Source: a virus
Reading direction: 5' to 3' (one strand)
DNA length: 33,305 nt
Virus record (IMG/VR): IMGVR_UViG_3300044939_000168
Coordinates: 1 to 33,305 of that record
Part shown: positions 9,595-25,501 of the stretch, one piece after another
How the letters are laid out: every line of letters starts with the position of its first letter
Numbering within the stretch: position 1 is the stretch's first letter
Position numbers and translations under genes: made by a program
Notes under the pieces: generated by a model
Seen by the model: the letters and a program-made list of their open reading frames with translations, nothing else
Databases searched by the model: none
Told to the model about the DNA's origin: nothing

Positions 9595-11982
9595 TTATCT
9601 AAAAACTAAATAAGGAACGTTTAATTCTTTTTTCTTTTTATTATCGTTCTTTTTCATTTTACCATTATATAATTTTTTTAAAGAATTTTCATAATTGTCA
9701 AGTATCCAAAAACCCGTTGCAATTGTTTTTAATCTTTGACCCGTCCCAAAAGACATTATTAATTTATCTCCCTCTACACTTATTAACTCCCCCATTTCTT
9801 TTATTACTTGCTCATCGGGAATTTTTATGTGTCTCCCATCAACTATCTGCTTAAAATAATCCATAATGATGGGAAGATTTGAGACTGTTATCTTAAATCC
9901 CTCCCTAACCGTTGGAAAACCGTTATCGTCTGGCTGCATACATAAAAGATTAGGATAGTTTCTTTTTGTTAATTCAATAAAAATAGCATCACCCTCACCC
10001 GATCTCTCAACAACAATCTGGGCTTTGTTAAAAAAATATCCCGCTTTTTCAAGCAAAGTAGCACACATTAAAGCATTAATATCACCATCAATTTTTCCAA
10101 TAACCTCCGAGGTTAACTTGTTAAATATATACGCAACGGTTTTTTGCTCTCTCGTAACAAAAATAAAAAATTTGTCATTTTCCTCAAAAAAGGGAGTATA
10201 TTCTTTTGCATCAATCGGAACAAAAACCGAGACTAATGAGGTTGTTCCCAAACGATAAACTGGTGGGTTATAGCCAAAAAGAAGAATTCTTGTCGGCGCT
10301 CTTACCGACCTCATCTGGTCAACCAAAGCACCCGTATCAAAAAATCCACGATTTTCTTTTACTTTACTGTCAAAATCACGAAGGACATCTAAAGCAAACC
10401 AAGAAGCCATTAACAAATCTCCCGCATGCGTATTGTAAGTATAAACGGACATTTCATACAATAATTGTCTAACTTTATTAAACGATTCTCTATTTGCTTT
10501 TGCCGATGGAATAATTATTTTATTCTGCTCCATTAACATTGCAATATGGGCAATTCCTGTTTCTGGATTAAACTTTTTACTAGCTGTTGTTTTAAATCCT
10601 TCAATTGGTATCTCATCCGATAATTCCTGTCTTATCATATCCTGAAAAGCAATCGTCTCTACTCTTATCTTAACGGGATGAAAAGCATAATAAGCATCCA
10701 CTATTTTTTGTTTTGTTTCTTCAGGATTCCATTTTCCATAATCAAGCCATAATAAAATCCTTTCTCTTTTGTCATTTAATCCCCAAACGGCAATTGCTGA
10801 ATTGGCAGCATCTTTTGATTTTGATATTGCCAAATCAACGCCTATCGCAACAACCAAATGACCATATGTGTTATACAAAAAAGGAATATGAAGATTATCC
10901 CATTCGGGAAGCAGAGACTTCTGAGAACCCCTCTCAATAGCGTTTTTTATTGCACTCTCACGAAAGACTTTATCTTCTTCAACAACGGGTTCGTTTAAAT
11001 ACTGCCTCATAAAAGAAGCGTTGCTCATATTCTCTTTTTTCTTCATTAATTTTTCAAAACTCCATTTTTCCTCCCATAACACACCTGACATTAATTTTTT
11101 TCCCATCGCCCATTGTCTTCGGATCTCCATTGACATAATCTCTTGAATCTTTTGCGCAAGTGGAAAATCTAAAGGGTTATATGGCAAATGGTATCTTAAT
11201 TTTCCCTCATTCTTAATTACATTTTCATCATATATTAAAGCTTTTAATTTAAGACGAACATCGAAATTACTATCATTTAAAAGTGTGTCATACAAATCGT
11301 TTCTATACCAACTTGTCCCGACAATGATTAAACGACCATCATCTTCCAATATCGGCAATAATACATTCTCGAACCATTCTAATGTTTTCTTTCTCATATC
11401 ATTGCTACGAGCATTATTAATATCAAGCAAATCATCAACAATAATAATGTCCGCTCTTCTTGAAATTAACTTACCACCCGCTCCAATAGCGGCCACCGTT
11501 GGGTCTTTTTCCATTGTTGTTCTTTTAACGATAAAAGCTCTTTCTCCCCATTTCTTTGGAGTTTGAGGCACAAGGTATCCAAAGTTATCAATTAAAGCAG
11601 TGTTGTTTTCGAGATTATTGATTATGGCACGATTAAAGGAAATAGCAATATCTTCGTTTGCGGAAACAATAAGGATGCGGATATTTGGATTTCTGTATAT
11701 CTCCCATATCGGATAGTTGATTGTAAAGCAGGTCGACTTCGAATGAAATCGTGGCGCTAAAACAATAATGTTTTTATTTATTCCATGAACCCATTTTCTA
11801 TATTTCTTAACATTAAAGAACAACTTTAATTTTCCGTCCTTATCCAATCTTTGAATTATTTTATTTTCCAAGATGTTATAGAACAATCTATGATGCCAAT
11901 TCATTCTTAACTTCATTGGCAGATAATTTTCCACAAACTCGGTTAAAGATTCGGGGACAGGTTTTAGAAGTTCATTTGACAT
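9595..11982 (-). CDS. terL: Large terminase (ATPase-nuclease) with an extra nuclease-like C-terminal domain, 795 aa
   Basis: Packaging motor. The N-terminal ATPase has a Walker A-like loop 'APRFHSKST' (residues 76-84), Walker B 'IVDD' (181-184) and a coupling motif 'VGTSW' (221-225). An RNase H-type nuclease follows, with acidic residues D383 ('GVDLA'), E442 ('RVET') and D522 ('AGDLL'). Most terminases of this kind would stop soon after. Here about 230 more residues repeat the pattern of a second terminase nuclease: 'VPIDAKEY' (D591), a hydrophobic strand block, 'ALMCATLLEKAGYFFNKAQI', 'VVERSGEGDAIFIELTKRNY' (E659) and 'LPIIMDYFKQIVDGRHIKIP'. The third acidic position seems absent ('QRLKTIATGFWIL'). 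The gene is transcribed from a divergent leaderless promoter shared with the glycosyltransferase gene. Confidence 0.92.
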   Translation of the reverse strand: MSNELLKPVPESLTEFVENYLPMKLRMNWHHRLFYNILENKIIQRLDKDGKLKLFFNVKKYRKWVHGINKNIIVLAPRFHSKSTCFTINYPIWEIYRNPNIRILIVSANEDIAISFNRAIINNLENNTALIDNFGYLVPQTPKKWGERAFIVKRTTMEKDPTVAAIGAGGKLISRRADIIIVDDLLDINNARSNDMRKKTLEWFENVLLPILEDDGRLIIVGTSWYRNDLYDTLLNDSNFDVRLKLKALIYDENVIKNEGKLRYHLPYNPLDFPLAQKIQEIMSMEIRRQWAMGKKLMSGVLWEEKWSFEKLMKKKENMSNASFMRQYLNEPVVEEDKVFRESAIKNAIERGSQKSLLPEWDNLHIPFLYNTYGHLVVAIGVDLAISKSKDAANSAIAVWGLNDKRERILLWLDYGKWNPEETKQKIVDAYYAFHPVKIRVETIAFQDMIRQELSDEIPIEGFKTTASKKFNPETGIAHIAMLMEQNKIIIPSAKANRESFNKVRQLLYEMSVYTYNTHAGDLLMASWFALDVLRDFDSKVKENRGFFDTGALVDQMRSVRAPTRILLFGYNPPVYRLGTTSLVSVFVPIDAKEYTPFFEENDKFFIFVTREQKTVAYIFNKLTSEVIGKIDGDINALMCATLLEKAGYFFNKAQIVVERSGEGDAIFIELTKRNYPNLLCMQPDDNGFPTVREGFKITVSNLPIIMDYFKQIVDGRHIKIPDEQVIKEMGELISVEGDKLIMSFGTGQRLKTIATGFWILDNYENSLKKLYNGKMKKNDNKKKKELNVPYLVFR

Positions 11983-17513: not shown

Positions 17514-20500
17514 TTACGCGACACGAAGCCTCAACCCACGACGAGAGGTTTTGGATACTTTAAGTTTTTTAGTCCTCACCTTGCTTGGTGGCTTCGACCC
17601 CCCACCACTTATTTTTACCCTACCCAAAGGTTTGATTTGATATGGTTTGTATTCTTGTAATGTAGAAGTTTTAATTCTTTTAACCGGTAACCCCACCCCT
17701 TTAAAAGTATATTTTTTAGTTGATATTTTTTTAGGTTTAACACCAGCGCTTGCCACTGCTTGACTCACAACATCTGATATACCCTTAAACTCTCCTGGCT
17801 TATTTCCGTGTAGAAGATTATACAATCCTTCATATTGACCAACATAAGGTTTCTTTGTTTCGGTCTGCTCTGTCTTTGTTTGTTTGTCTGCTGGCTGTAA
17901 AGTATTTTCTGCCGCCTCAACTTCTTTACCTACTACTTGCTTAAATAAATTACCAATTTCGTTAAGAACGTCATTGACTATTCCTTTTGTTTCTTCTTTC
18001 TGTTCAAGTATCTTAGCAATATCTTCACCAACCTCGCTTGCTTTCTGATTAAACTTCTCAACTGCCTGATCTCTTGTTGCTGGGTCTAAATACATAGGGG
18101 TTAATTCCTTCGCATAGTCTTTTAGTATCTGAATTTTATCTTGCACGTCTCTTAATAGATGGACACGATTATAATACTCAATTGCTGCTTGCGGATTTGT
18201 TTCCATTAATGTTTTAAATATCGCAGATTGTTGTTCGCCAAGCGCTGTTTCACCACTCTCATAATATTTATTTGCAGCAGGAGTTGAATACTGACCAAAC
18301 AATACAGAGCGGATAAGATTTGAAATGTTTTTTTCAACAGGATATCTTACACTTCCTTTCGCTGTTTCTGAATATCCCTTGATATAATTTTCCATTCCTT
18401 CAATCGTTTTATATGCTTGATATCCTCCCGCAGGAGGAAAATATGTTAAACCAAATTTAAGTAATGATTTAGGAATAGATTCTGAAAGTTCTCTTGCACT
18501 TGGAATACCAGCCGCAACTGGGATACGACCACCACCAGTAAGAATAGAAATAAAAGGAAGATTGTCTGCGATTGTTTCTCCTATTTTTTTTACTTTTTCA
18601 TTTGGAGAATCTGAACTTTGTAATATATCATAAGAATGAAGAGCAATATATATTGGGTCAAATGCCGGTCTTCTACCTGTTGCCCACTGAAAAACATTGT
18701 TAAATAAATGAGAATATAAAACTATTTGACCAATAGTAGATGCTGTTTTTATAAAATCTTTTTCGTTTTGTTTAGGGATATCTTTGAAAATAAATGAAAG
18801 TTGATTGTTCACTTCTAACTGGAACATTGTTGCTAATTTAAGTAATCCTTGATTTTCAAATAACAATGGCATTTGTCCAAATGACCTATCGCCAATTAAC
18901 CTTGCCGCATAATCATCAGCAATTTTCATTGCCTCTTCTGGCGAAAAACCCTTTTTTAATCCTTCAAAATATTTAGAAGAAACAACAGCCGTTGAGGTCC
19001 ATTTATCAATCGTATAAAACAACCACGCCGCTTTTTCAGAGAACTTCTCCCACAACGTTTGTGATATGTCTTTATACGGAAAACGTCTTCTTAAAAATGA
19101 AGACTGAACACCATCAATCATAAAATCTTCTGCCTCATCTATTGGATTTAATGTTGCTGTAATTAATCCTTTCACAAAAGAAGCTTTATCTGTTGTTGCT
19201 AATGCTTGAGTTAAAGGTATCCAGTTAGTAAAAGCAGCACTTATATTTCCTGCTATTAAATTAGCGGAAGCCTGTTTTGCTAATGTATTAACAACACCAT
19301 ACATTTTTCTTCCACCTAATCCCTCCGTTGCTCTTGCCATTAATGATTTTTTACCAGCTAAAATATTCACATAATCATTTAACCAAGCCATAAAATTAGA
19401 CAAATGAGTTGGAGAAAGACTTTCATTTTTTTGTATTGCTTCGGCTAAAGTTTTATGTAACGCCCTTCCTCTTTGAATAACATCGGTATAATAAATTTGC
19501 CGAGCCGCTGGTCGAAGATAATTTTCAAAAGCACCGATTGCCGATTCGGTATAATCTCCTCCTAAGCGTGGTTGGGCAAACTGGAAGAATTGTTTGCCCG
19601 GTTTAAAATCTGCGGTTAATCCATTTAACCAAGCAGGTAATCTTTCACTACGCGTTATTGCTCCAAGTTGTTGAAATAAATTTCCAATTTCTTGATAATG
19701 AGTATAATAATCTTTTCTTTTCTTAACTGGCTCATATCCATATTTTGTGATAGTATCATTGATCTTATTTAATAAATCATCATAAAGATTTCTAAAATAT
19801 TTATCTGCCTCAATTATTTGTTGCCATTTATCAGGGGCAGCTTTTTTCAATTCCTCTAATGTCATCCTTCCCTCACCCCATCTCATTACCAATTTATCTT
19901 CATTACTGTTAGGAGTAATACCAAGTTTTTTAATAATGTTTTCTTCTATTCCAACTTTTATATTTTTAACAAAATTCTCAAATTGTCTTGTGGCTTCAGC
20001 AACTCTATTAACAAAAAAATCTTTAATAACAGGGGCATCTTTTCCAGTAATATCTTCTATGTTCCTAATCGGTGTTTCACGATTAAGTAAAAGAATATCT
20101 TTATCTTTCCACTTAGTAATATCAATCTCACCAAACGGCACTCTAATTCCGCCCTTCCCCTCAACGTTTATTGTTTCTTCCCTAAATGCTTTTTCTGCTT
20201 CTTTTAAAAGTTTAGATTGTCCTTTCATACTTATCTTTACTTGCTGTTCTTGAACACGTGAATATTGTTTTGGTGTTAATAAATCATACTTTTCTTTTAA
20301 GAAACGATTGGCGTCACGATAAATTTCATTAAATTCTTTTTCACTAATAGAACGAGAAGAAGCAACTTCTTCTGTTGTTTTTTTAAGACTTTGGTTAACC
20401 TTTTTAAATGTCTCTCCACTTTCAGCAAAACGATTTAACTCATCCATTAATTCTCTTTCAGTCATCCCCAAATTCGTCGCAAGTTCATCGGAAGACATAT

Positions 20501-23588: not shown

Positions 23589-23617
23589 ATTTGATAATTT
23601 TTTTTTTAACTTGTCAA
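23589..23617 (-). promoter_or_regulatory. Leaderless-type late promoter of the ejection protein gene
   Basis: TTGACA (23617-23612), 17-nt spacer ending in AAAAATTA, TCAAAT (23594-23589), 8 nt (AATAGCAT) to ATG 23580. The eight bases before ATG are identical to those at the tail fibre gene (869-876). Confidence 0.68.
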
Positions 23618-23627
23618 GAGGTATCAC

Positions 23628-23656
23628 TTGACTTTTTAAGAAAGATAGGTTAAAAT
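23628..23656 (+). promoter_or_regulatory. Early promoter 1
   Basis: TTGACT (23628-23633), 17-nt spacer, TAAAAT (23651-23656), at the head of the plus-strand early genes and divergent from the late promoter at 23589-23617. Confidence 0.7.
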
Positions 23657-23662
23657 ATATTA

Positions 23663-23707
23663 TTGACAAACTATTAGGAATATCATATCATATTTTATGG
23701 TATGATA
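23663..23707 (+). promoter_or_regulatory. Early promoter 2 with an operator-like inverted repeat
   Basis: TTGACA (23663-23668), 17-nt spacer, TATCAT (23686-23691). An inverted repeat TATCATA (23686-23692) / TATGATA (23701-23707) covers both the -10 box and the start codon at 23702, so a bound protein or an RNA hairpin would block expression. The leader is only a few nucleotides. Confidence 0.6.
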
Positions 23708-23992
23708 TACCTGATAGACAAAATAGATTTAGAGTTATTTGAGATTAATAAAAATAGTTTTTACACGTTTGATTTGTTTGAAACAACTGAGGAAAGAGTT
23801 TTAAAATGGATTGAGAACGAAAGATGCAGAAGTATTTTTTCAAGATTGGAAATAATAAATTTATTTAAGACGAGATATAAAGTTCAGGTAGTAAAGGTAG
23901 ATAAAATTAAATTAAAGAAATATGACAAGTTAATAGTTTGGACAAACAGTGGAAGATATTTTATATTAGAATTTAAAAATTTATACAAATGA
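23702..23992 (+). CDS. First early protein, 96 aa; possible STIV B116 / DUF1874 (AcrIII-1) relative
   Basis: The start 'MIYLIDKIDLELF', a central helix 'SIFSRLEIINLF' (residues 44-55), then 'VDKIKLKKYDKLIVWTNSGR' resemble the B116/DUF1874 plan: an N-terminal strand, the 'S-A-I-G-H-x-x-T' helix, and a '+xxLxxGDKxxVxxxxxR' strand. That family includes AcrIII-1, a ring nuclease that destroys cyclic tetra-adenylate of type III CRISPR. In my hand alignment the catalytic His is Arg48 here, so activity may be lost or different. Its place as the first early gene behind two promoters fits an anti-defence protein. The resemblance is remote, and the gene may belong to another small fold. Confidence 0.5.
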   Translation: MIYLIDKIDLELFEINKNSFYTFDLFETTEERVLKWIENERCRSIFSRLEIINLFKTRYKVQVVKVDKIKLKKYDKLIVWTNSGRYFILEFKNLYK

Positions 23993-24261
23993 AAGTCAAA
24001 GAACTTTTTGAACAACACCAAAGTCTTGTTGACGAAAGAAGAAAAAACAGAAGGTTGTCTAACAAATTGATTAAGAAAAACAAAGAGTTAAAAGAAAAAG
24101 AGGAGTTGGTAAAAAGGGAATTGGTTGATGAGATTGGAAAACAAATGGCTGATGGGAAAAGTTTATATCAAATATGCCAAGAAAACTTTGGTCAAGTAGA
24201 TAACAGGTTTCATAATCTTTATATAATCTTTACCAAACAGATGAAAAAGGATGGGAGGTGA
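23989..24261 (+). CDS. Unknown coiled-coil early protein, 90 aa
   Basis: Not recognised. It is strongly basic and helical ('RRKNRRLSNKLIKKNKELKE', 'ELVDEIGKQMADGKSLYQIC'). The end 'GKSLYQICQENFGQVDNRFH' has the look of a short helix-turn-helix. The start overlaps the previous stop codon (ATGA). Confidence 0.55.
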   Translation: MKVKELFEQHQSLVDERRKNRRLSNKLIKKNKELKEKEELVKRELVDEIGKQMADGKSLYQICQENFGQVDNRFHNLYIIFTKQMKKDGR

Positions 24262-24268
24262 GAAAAGC

Positions 24269-24445
24269 GTGATAAAAATTATTTTTAAATCTTTAACTAA
24301 AATTGTTGCTATCGCGTTCTCAACGATAACAGCAATAATGCTTTTTCAAGAAGGATTTGGCAAACAAAGTATTGTAATTATTTTATATTCTTTTGCTGGA
24401 CTTTGGCTTGCTGTAGTAGCCTATTGGCTTGTAAGAAAAATATGA
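24269..24445 (+). CDS. Small two-pass membrane protein, 58 aa
   Basis: GTG 24269 is chosen because GGGAGGTGAG sits at the right distance before it; the ATG at 24251 lies upstream of that site. Two hydrophobic segments, 'IVAIAFSTITAIMLF' and 'IVIILYSFAGLWLAVVAYWL', are separated by a short polar loop. This is the size and topology of a class II holin or an early membrane protein; no more can be said. Confidence 0.55.
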   Translation: MIKIIFKSLTKIVAIAFSTITAIMLFQEGFGKQSIVIILYSFAGLWLAVVAYWLVRKI

Positions 24446-24446
24446 C

Positions 24447-24475
24447 TTGACAATAGTTAAAAAATAGTGTATATT
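24447..24475 (+). promoter_or_regulatory. Promoter of the DUF5659 / replication operon
   Basis: TTGACA (24447-24452), 17-nt spacer, TATATT (24470-24475). The transcript has a 20-nt leader that contains GGGGGACGA before the GTG start at 24502. Confidence 0.8.
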
Positions 24476-24501
24476 AAACTTATCGTATTGGGGGACGACG
24501 A

Positions 24502-24810
24502 GTGGAATTAAAAATTATATGTATAAAGAATATGGAAAAATATATAACTGACAACCTATACCTCGCTTCAGCGTTGCTTTCATTAGGATATAAAAATTAC
24601 TCTCTTAAACAAGAAGGAAGAAAGGTTTTTTTTATCTTTGATTATCCAAAAGACAAAATACTTAAAAACGAAGATGAGTATTGGCGAGAGGAAATGCTTG
24701 TTTCTCCTAAAAAACTATTTATGGCGTATAAAGAATTAAAAAACCGTATTAGTAGTTTAGGATTATATGTATATGAAAGATCAAAATCAAAATATCCAAC
24801 CAAAGATTAA
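24502..24810 (+). CDS. DUF5659-like protein, 102 aa
   Basis: Matches the pattern of the DUF5659 family of mobile elements: 'YITDNLYLASALLSLGYKNY' (family: D-L-YLAA-L-LG), then 'GRKVFFIFDYPKDKILKNED' and 'VSPKKLFMAYKELKNRISSL'. These small proteins commonly sit near replication genes; biochemical role unknown. GTG start; the gene overlaps the initiator gene by 44 bp. Confidence 0.7.
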   Translation: MELKIICIKNMEKYITDNLYLASALLSLGYKNYSLKQEGRKVFFIFDYPKDKILKNEDEYWREEMLVSPKKLFMAYKELKNRISSLGLYVYERSKSKYPTKD

Positions 24811-25501
24811 AGGAGGATATTACTTAAAAGCAAGAAAAATTCAGTCTTCTTGGATTGCTAAAGCACCTCCTTTTGTTAGGGAAATATGGGATTGGCTACT
24901 AATGAATGCTAATCATACCGATAATGAAATATGCAAAAGAGGGCAACAGATAAGGACGTATAAAGATATTCTTGATGGGCTGGCGTGGTATATTGGCTGG
25001 AGAAAACAAACATATACAAAATGGCAATGCGAAAAAGCAATGAAATTATTACGAGAGCATAATATGATAGCCACAACGAAAACCACAAGAGGAATTTTAA
25101 TTGAGATTGTCAATTACGACTATTATCAAAATCCAGAAAACTATGAGAGCCACAAGAGAGCCACAACGAAAGCCACAAGAGAGCCACAGACTAGCCACAC
25201 TATAAACAAGAATGATAATAATGATAAGAATGATAATAATAATATATATAAAGAGAAAGTAAATAAAGAGAAAAAATATTTTGAACTTCCTGAATATCTT
25301 ATAAACAAAGAACAACTAAAACAAGACTTTATTAATGGTCATTTTAAAAAATACAATGTAACCCTAACTGACGTTATAAGAAAAGCAGAACAACTCTATA
25401 ACTGGTATCTTTCCAATCCTAAAAAGAATAAGAAATCAAACTGGCGGGCGACTTTGATAAACGCTATTATTAGGGACTTTGGTTATCAGTTTAATAGTTA
25501 A
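24767..25501 (+). CDS. Replication initiator (lambda O / DnaD-type), 244 aa
   Basis: The N-terminal winged helix 'RTYKDILDGLAWYIGWRKQT' and 'KAMKLLREHNMIATTKTTRG' ends in the hallmark 'ILIEIVNYDYYQNPENYE' wing, as in phage replisome organisers. A low-complexity linker follows (residues about 125-170: SHK/ATT and DNN repeats), encoded by iteron-like DNA. The C-terminal helical part 'LIRKAEQLY'-type ('LTDVIRKAEQLYNWYLSNPK') with 'NWRATLINAIIRDFG' is typical for helicase-loader-binding ends. It should bind the iterons inside its own gene and recruit the DnaB-type helicase encoded next (2 bp downstream). ATG 24767 has AGGA 5 nt upstream. Confidence 0.78.
   Translation: MYMKDQNQNIQPKIKGGYYLKARKIQSSWIAKAPPFVREIWDWLLMNANHTDNEICKRGQQIRTYKDILDGLAWYIGWRKQTYTKWQCEKAMKLLREHNMIATTKTTRGILIEIVNYDYYQNPENYESHKRATTKATREPQTSHTINKNDNNDKNDNNNIYKEKVNKEKKYFELPEYLINKEQLKQDFINGHFKKYNVTLTDVIRKAEQLYNWYLSNPKKNKKSNWRATLINAIIRDFGYQFNS
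25069..25262 (+). repeat. Putative replication origin: phased AGCCACA iterons plus an AT-rich unwinding tract
   Basis: AGCCACA occurs at 25148, 25159, 25171, 25182 and 25193, that is every 11-12 bp, one DNA turn. A further pair lies at 25069 (AGCCACA) and 25081 (AACCACA). Immediately after the five-copy array lies an almost pure A/T tract (25200-25262, GATAATAATGATAAG-like and ATATATATA). This order, iterons followed by an AT-rich region inside the initiator gene, is the layout of phage lambda ori within gene O. Confidence 0.68.

Follow-up and report, generated by a model that had tools for sequence, protein, structure and literature searches.

A probable phage replication origin inside its own initiator gene and the layout it shares with relatives

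Described origins within initiator genes and their likeness to the present locus

Replication origins embedded in the gene for their own initiator have been described in several phages and in at least one plasmid. In lambda and its Stx relatives, the origin is reported to occupy the central part of the initiator gene and to consist of iterons followed by an A/T-rich tract, the iterons being 19-bp imperfect inverted repeats (PMC7466680). Gene 38 of the Bacillus phage SPP1 is described as harboring oriL, with direct repeats and an A/T-rich unwinding element bound by gp38, and a DnaB-family helicase is named among the replication genes of this phage (PMC6316719). For phage L, six imprecise 11-bp repeats (TGTCCAACGGA) within gene 18 were called the likely origin (PMC8022706). 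ORF20 of Staphylococcus phage 80alpha, an initiator gene, was proposed to bear the origin (PMC5499656), and the sequence record of this phage carries a putative rep_origin annotation inside the ORF20 gene. In the staphylococcal plasmid pSK41, whose Rep belongs to the RepA_N group, four Rep boxes inside the rep gene are described as being bound by the winged-helix domain, and the peptide encoded over the origin as a dispensable linker (PMC5703833). Origins inside initiator genes, as well as 11-bp repeats within such a gene (phage L gene 18), are hence already in print.

The DNA analyzed here, referred to as the window, is the whole IMG/VR record IMGVR_UViG_3300044939_000168, 33,305 bases in length. 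We conclude, with a probability of roughly 0.9, that positions 25069–25262 constitute a phage theta-type origin that is located inside its own initiator gene and worked by the product of that gene, P0001. All sequence evidence gathered favors the proposal of an earlier, sequence-only reading that an origin is hidden inside the initiator gene: the iteron array exceeds its null models, the layout recurs in 80/94 clusters of relatives, and iteron copies in wing-coding DNA, a conserved A/T motif, covariation between iteron words and protein residues, a neighboring helicase gene and the precedents of lambda, SPP1 oriL, phage L, 80alpha and pSK41 point in the same direction.

The closest of these precedents is phage L, where tandem 11-bp direct repeats lie inside the initiator gene as they do in the window. 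Proteins of the phages ST64T and HK629 match an N-terminal domain profile whose cluster set includes the window (4.7e-20 and 4.4e-22, respectively), and both loci carry TGTCCA words at 11 bp, the word of phage L. Their word differs from that of the window, a gap divides the words into two sets of three, and the full AAACAANAATG boundary motif (see below) is absent, because the tract reads AAACAATAATA. In ST64T, a DnaB-like helicase gene adjoins, as in the window. SPP1 was compared by layout only and resembles the window in having repeats and an A/T-rich element within the initiator gene.

The label "lambda-like", which the sequence-only reading had attached to the locus, is apt for the layout (within the initiator gene, iterons with an A/T-rich tract behind them) and for the likely mechanism, but not for the detail: lambda has four inverted-repeat iterons with spacings of 21, 23 and 23, whereas the window has 11-bp direct repeats, with a 7-bp word recurring at 11–12 bp steps. 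At E<=10, lambda O was absent from the matches to the N-terminal profile. Lambda O (5.2e-17) and P0001 (8.7e-4) each match PHROG 345 ("replication initiation O-like"), and the C-terminal part of lambda O matches those of the surveyed family members L127, L126 and L062 (6e-22 to 4e-20; L127 6e-22), but not the window. This C-terminal part is common to L126, L127, L062 (a Bacillus genome) and L167, where it is combined with DNA-binding domains of the window type; judged from sequence, such sharing appears to be domain swapping between Gram-positive and Gram-negative phages.

Two further protein matches involve C-terminal parts. ORF20 of 80alpha matches the family member L016 only over this region (residues 157–234), and the C-terminal part of the TP901-1 protein matches many members, including L114 and L054. 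The rep gene of TP901-1 was considered as a match and set aside, as its repeats follow one another at 15–21 bp steps and its N-terminal domain is not matched by the profile; experimental work on the TP901-1 repeats reportedly exists.

Gene context, initiator fold and iteron array of the window

Near 23.6 kb, minus-strand structural genes give way to plus-strand replication genes, and the GC skew changes sign there (positions 23600–25500). GC skew had been suggested as a check on the site. The cumulative minimum was found at ~22.5–23.5 kb, about 2 kb to the left of the site, and was given no weight, because the genes change direction at the same place and the skew is confounded by their orientation. 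The window contains no tRNA genes and no Rfam matches, its terminase shares ~25% identity at best with known phages among the matches listed, and matches to P0001 were present in 4/72,556 plasmid records. The features of the locus are compiled in Table 1.

Table 1. Coordinates of the initiator locus and its elements in the window
Feature	Position	Strand	Remarks
Promoter-like site TTGACA-17-TATATT	24447–24475	+	Upstream of replication genes; 11/12 in consensus scan, consensus match only
Initiator gene P0001 (244 aa)	24767–25501	+	N-terminal winged-helix domain, low-complexity linker, small C-terminal domain
DNA coding for winged-helix DNA-binding domain (about residues 20–123)	24824–25135	+	Predicted model; structural matches
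DNA coding for putative recognition helix (residues 85–97)	25019–25057	+	Model; residues 86 and 90 covary with array words
Satellite iteron AGCCACA, wing-coding DNA (residues 101–103)	25069–25075	+	79 bp before array
Satellite iteron AACCACA, wing-coding DNA (residues 105–107)	25081–25087	+	67 bp before array
Array of five AGCCACA iterons, linker-coding DNA	25148–25199	+	11–12 bp steps, read in three frames
Proposed unwinding region	25200–25262	+	A/T-rich; AABAATG units at 25208, 25217 and 25226 (9-bp steps)
Boundary motif AAACAANAATG (window: AAACAAGAATG)	25204–25214	+	Conserved in 60/94 clusters
DnaB-type replicative helicase gene P0002	25504–26673	+	Pfam DnaB_C 1.8e-39; PHROG 19 2.4e-48

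P0001 matches PHROG 2514 ("DnaD-like helicase loader") at 6e-22. A structure model built on 53 aligned sequences shows a confident winged helix (block mean pLDDT mostly 94–98 over residues 31–120) followed by an unconfident linker. Within this model, we take the helix at residues 85–97 as the recognition helix, and the strands of the wing span residues 101–106 and 109–114. Structural matches over residues 20–123 are winged helices, including origin-recognition subunits (ORC2, Z 9.6), and many of the matching viral predicted structures are named replisome organizers. Also among the structural matches are 4pql (Z 8.8 over 109 aligned residues) and 4pt7 (Z 8.5 over 114), which we take to be RepA_N initiator domains and which form the likeness to pSK41; their Z values are tied with those of other winged helices and indicate a common fold only. 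Unlike pSK41 Rep, P0001 has no RepA_N match by sequence, the Pfam scan having returned only TerB_N at 0.097. No RepA_N or DnaD entry is named among the 50 Foldseek matches listed, a structure search by sequence gave no convincing solved relative, and a structure profile search returned weak winged-helix matches together with two glycosidase chains (2.3e-5 and 2.5e-5). The gene that follows encodes a DnaB-type helicase, just as the sequence-only reading had stated (Table 1).

All five AGCCACA words that had been reported for the linker-coding DNA (at 25148, 25159, 25171, 25182 and 25193) are exact, with spacings of 11, 12, 11 and 11 bp. Two upstream words had been added to these, of which the one at 25069 is exact and the one at 25081 reads AACCACA, with one mismatch; the sole further AGCCACA in the window is found at 19989 on the minus strand. 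The five array units fall into codon phases 0, 2, 2, 1 and 0 and read SH/AT/AT/PQ/SH. Because the units are thus read in all three frames, the repeat is not explained by the peptide. Six copies of one 7-mer, as found in the P0001 ORF, were attained in 0/2000 dinucleotide shuffles and 0/2000 synonymous shuffles. Three-frame reading and the excess over the synonymous null are in line with the suggestion that in the linker the DNA rather than the protein is under selection, and the linker peptide may largely be a by-product of the DNA sequence.

In the mechanism we propose, copies of the winged-helix N-terminal domain of P0001 would line up on neighboring 11-bp iterons at intervals of roughly one helical turn, as we infer from the repeat geometry and from residue–word covariation, and the two wing-coded copies would act as outlying sites for the same protein. 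The bound array would then strain and open the adjacent A/T region at AAACAANAATG and the 9-bp units behind it. Given the observed gene order, the P0002 helicase might enter the open strands with help from the C-terminal domain of the initiator.

Alternatively, the repeats could be an autoregulatory operator by which the initiator shuts off its own operon, with the origin elsewhere. Many winged-helix proteins repress their own genes, and a promoter-like site is indeed present upstream (24447–24475), from which transcription, if it occurs, would cross the origin. The array, however, lies about 670 bp downstream of this promoter-like site and beside a conserved A/T motif, and known cases of the layout are origins. 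We consider an operator in place of an origin very unlikely; the same repeats could, however, serve both purposes. A second near-consensus promoter-like site (11/12) is located at 23663–23691, also upstream of the replication genes.

Arrays, wing-coded copies and residue covariation among relatives

Relatives were mostly collected by the N-terminal domain alone, to avoid selecting for the linker; exceptions are the window, L005, L007 and L010 (whole-protein query) and L011–L018, eight phage records (whole-protein search). This yielded 160 ORFs, two of which were too short, while the remainder formed 94 clusters; as these are related by descent, cluster counts overstate independence. Arrays were called by an unsupervised test for a 7-mer repeat at 10–13 bp steps, which a sequence passed if no more than 1/40 shuffles scored as high. 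A phased array beyond dinucleotide shuffles emerged in 80/94 clusters and an array beyond synonymous shuffles in 65/94, with 29/94 falling short of the latter. Relatives with the same initiator but without repeats, named by the sequence-only reading as a point against an origin, are thus a minority: 14/94 clusters do not pass and had no array detected (L011, L017, L018, L022, L028, L030, L057, L058, L064, L065, L071, L074, L079 and L081).

Iteron words vary among phages, whereas the layout is constant, with a spacing of mostly 11 bp. This periodicity was also apparent when no word search was involved: over the 84 clusters in which an anchor motif was recognizable and the sequence was long enough, the linker DNA gave autocorrelation peaks of 0.494, 0.462 and 0.440 at lags of 11, 22 and 33, respectively, vs. 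0.35 for shuffled sequence. The 11-bp peak was absent from the DNA for the domain body and the C-terminal part. The protein parts that follow the linker are diverse: 82 of them were sorted by sequence into 31 classes, the majority with arrays.

These comparisons bear on the view that the repeats are a protein feature, i.e. a charged repetitive linker whose codons repeat by chance. Compatible with it are the 29/94 clusters that do not beat synonymous recoding and the 12-bp single-frame repeats of L086 (Prevotella), Listeria phage A118 (L291) and Lactobacillus phage iA2 (L293), a one-frame minority that a protein-level reading could explain. An 11-bp step, in contrast, rotates the frame, such that one DNA word gives rise to different peptides; the autocorrelation peaks at 11 and not at 9 or 12; and, in the A/T units described below, a third codon starting with G is far commoner than in other ORFs, with the encoded residues mixed. 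As a general account of the repeats, we regard a protein feature as extremely improbable and retain the origin as the explanation of the array.

A search for the own array word upstream of the array, carried out in the 65 clusters that had both an anchor motif and a suitably located array, revealed a copy exactly 67 bp before the first unit in 23/65 clusters. When the words of other phages were used as a control (200 trials), the mean at this distance was 0.75 and the maximum 4. Smaller own-word peaks were seen at 56 bp (9 clusters) and 79 bp (6 clusters). Synonymous codon choice in the wing favored the own word at p<0.05 in 13/63 clusters, compared to 2/126 control regions, and at p<0.1 in 28/63 clusters, compared to 6/126 (controls taken from the domain body); the window itself has a p-value of 0.073. 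The wing match thus exceeds what protein conservation accounts for, as the codon choice favors the own word, with the reservation that the clusters are related and their p-values non-independent.

The wing-coding copies may also be something other than working sites, namely a relic, the array having arisen from duplicated wing-coding DNA, or a mere consequence of protein conservation, both of which are compatible with an origin. In the window, the wing pair (25066–25091) and two array units (25156–25181), offset by 90 bp without a change of frame, share 92% identity over 26 bp, and the array may therefore stem from a duplication. On the other hand, the match recurs with about eight word groups (15 words, grouped by eye), and synonymous codons of the wing favor the own word. 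That the copies are not working binding sites is in our judgment less likely than not, albeit a serious contender.

Direct reading of the iterons by the DNA-binding domain predicts that iteron words and protein residues covary. In a dereplicated set of 89 sequences whose arrays were strong, the similarity of words tracked domain identity (r 0.465), and after removal of identity the best word-tracking residues were 65 (r 0.222), 86 (0.168) and 90 (0.165). All three surpass the threshold of 0.14 below which 95% of the permutation maxima fall, with residues 96 and 108 next and below this level; the 200 maxima ranged up to 0.179, a value that residue 65 alone exceeds. In the structure model, residues 86 and 90 are one turn apart on the putative recognition helix and residue 108 is part of the wing. 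The covariation is what direct reading predicts, bearing in mind that the permutation ignores the tree. Since array words and recognition residues vary together, a protein–DNA recognition code can be fitted.

The A/T boundary motif, a motif-led scan and a possible common grammar

The DNA downstream of the array had been described as a 60-bp tract of almost pure A/T. An A/T-rich tract does follow the array, but with 83% A+T at 25200–25259 it is not almost pure. Its best 60-bp window reaches 86.7% A+T, a value equaled or exceeded by 217/33,246 windows of the contig, and A+T content alone therefore does not mark the site. What does set it apart is a sequence motif. The boundary motif AAACAANAATG was found in 60/94 cluster ORFs, with 58/60 sites in one frame, compared to 0–3/94 in each of the shuffle sets, and flanking DNA contained 4 sites per 319,623 bp on both strands. 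In the window, a second AAACAANAATG (AAACAATAATG) occurs at 11760–11770 inside the terminase ORF, where no repeat array was seen beside it by eye; this is probably a chance occurrence.

The motif continues as 9-bp units of the form AA[G/T/C]-AAT-GNN. Their lysine codons are AAG in 148 and AAA in 49 cases (95 vs. 204 in other ORFs), and, with AAG exceeding AAA, this preference is the opposite of selection for A+T. The third codon starts with G in 246/429 units vs. 130/493 codons elsewhere, encoding a mixture of Asp, Val, Glu, Ala and Gly. Other plus-strand frames of at least 300 bp in the same loci served as codon controls. Reading the units as a DnaA-trio or DnaD recognition element has some appeal, since codons for N, K, D and E put an A at every third base; it was dismissed as an explanation in itself, as the polarity relative to the array is opposite to that in B. 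subtilis oriC, and is taken up only within the common grammar proposed below. Inspection by eye for the Bacillus DnaD element (5'-TnnT-3' pairs on the top strand beside the boxes) found the A's on the top strand and TnnT on the bottom strand instead.

A viral collection was scanned with the 20-letter pattern AAACAABAATGNNAABAATG, and 120 loci among the matches listed, which are not a random sample and partly represent the same phages as the first set of relatives, were evaluated for the N-terminal profile, cut before the linker (E<1e-3), and for a phased array at most 160 bp upstream. Among these 120 listed matches, the domain was present in 98/120, the array in 98/120 and both in 93/120, and the motif stood in the expected frame in 110/120. 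Of the remaining loci, five had only the domain, five only the array, and 17 neither. Random places in the same listed loci passed the array test in 6/120 cases. In an earlier pass over 80 of the listed loci, for which different shuffles were used, the domain was present in 66 and an array in 59. The five loci with motif and array but no N-terminal domain match are L201, L205, L255, L263 and L276; the last three may carry another DNA-binding domain, while L201 and L205 have little upstream DNA.

Taken together, these regularities lead us to propose, tentatively and at somewhat less than even odds for the whole, a large, host-diverse class of phage origins with one grammar, in which wing-coding DNA that doubles as outlying binding sites at a fixed 67 bp, a coevolving array and an unwinding element that is read form one cassette. 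The array would consist of frame-rotating 11-bp linker DNA whose word coevolves with the recognition helix. The A/T part would be a single-strand element, AAACAANAATG(NNAABAATG)n, instead of a mere A/T-rich tract, and would be read by a common partner, be it the initiator or a host loader (DnaD or DnaA). DNA-binding domain, array and unwinding motif would move together onto different C-terminal domains. In the literature searched, a scope outside which the main review (Weigel and Seitz 2006) and the TP901-1 study fall, we found no report of wing-coded iteron copies, of a common unwinding motif or of covariation between words and residues; the review may already describe parts of the present findings.

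In itself, the site exemplifies an arrangement that is already known. What makes it useful are the rules that it brings to light, which are shared by a large and diverse set of phages. By means of the 20-letter motif together with a phased array, the origins of uncultivated phages can be found with nothing but their sequence. The shared unwinding motif, for its part, makes it testable whether the A/T-rich region of an origin is merely easily melted or read as a sequence.

Array spacings over the 120 listed loci were 11 (287 instances), 12 (62), 10 (3) and 13 (1), and 72/103 dereplicated arrays were strongly in register with the motif. Across the family, the iterons follow the loose consensus CAARNRRAMMA, with T nearly absent from the top strand.
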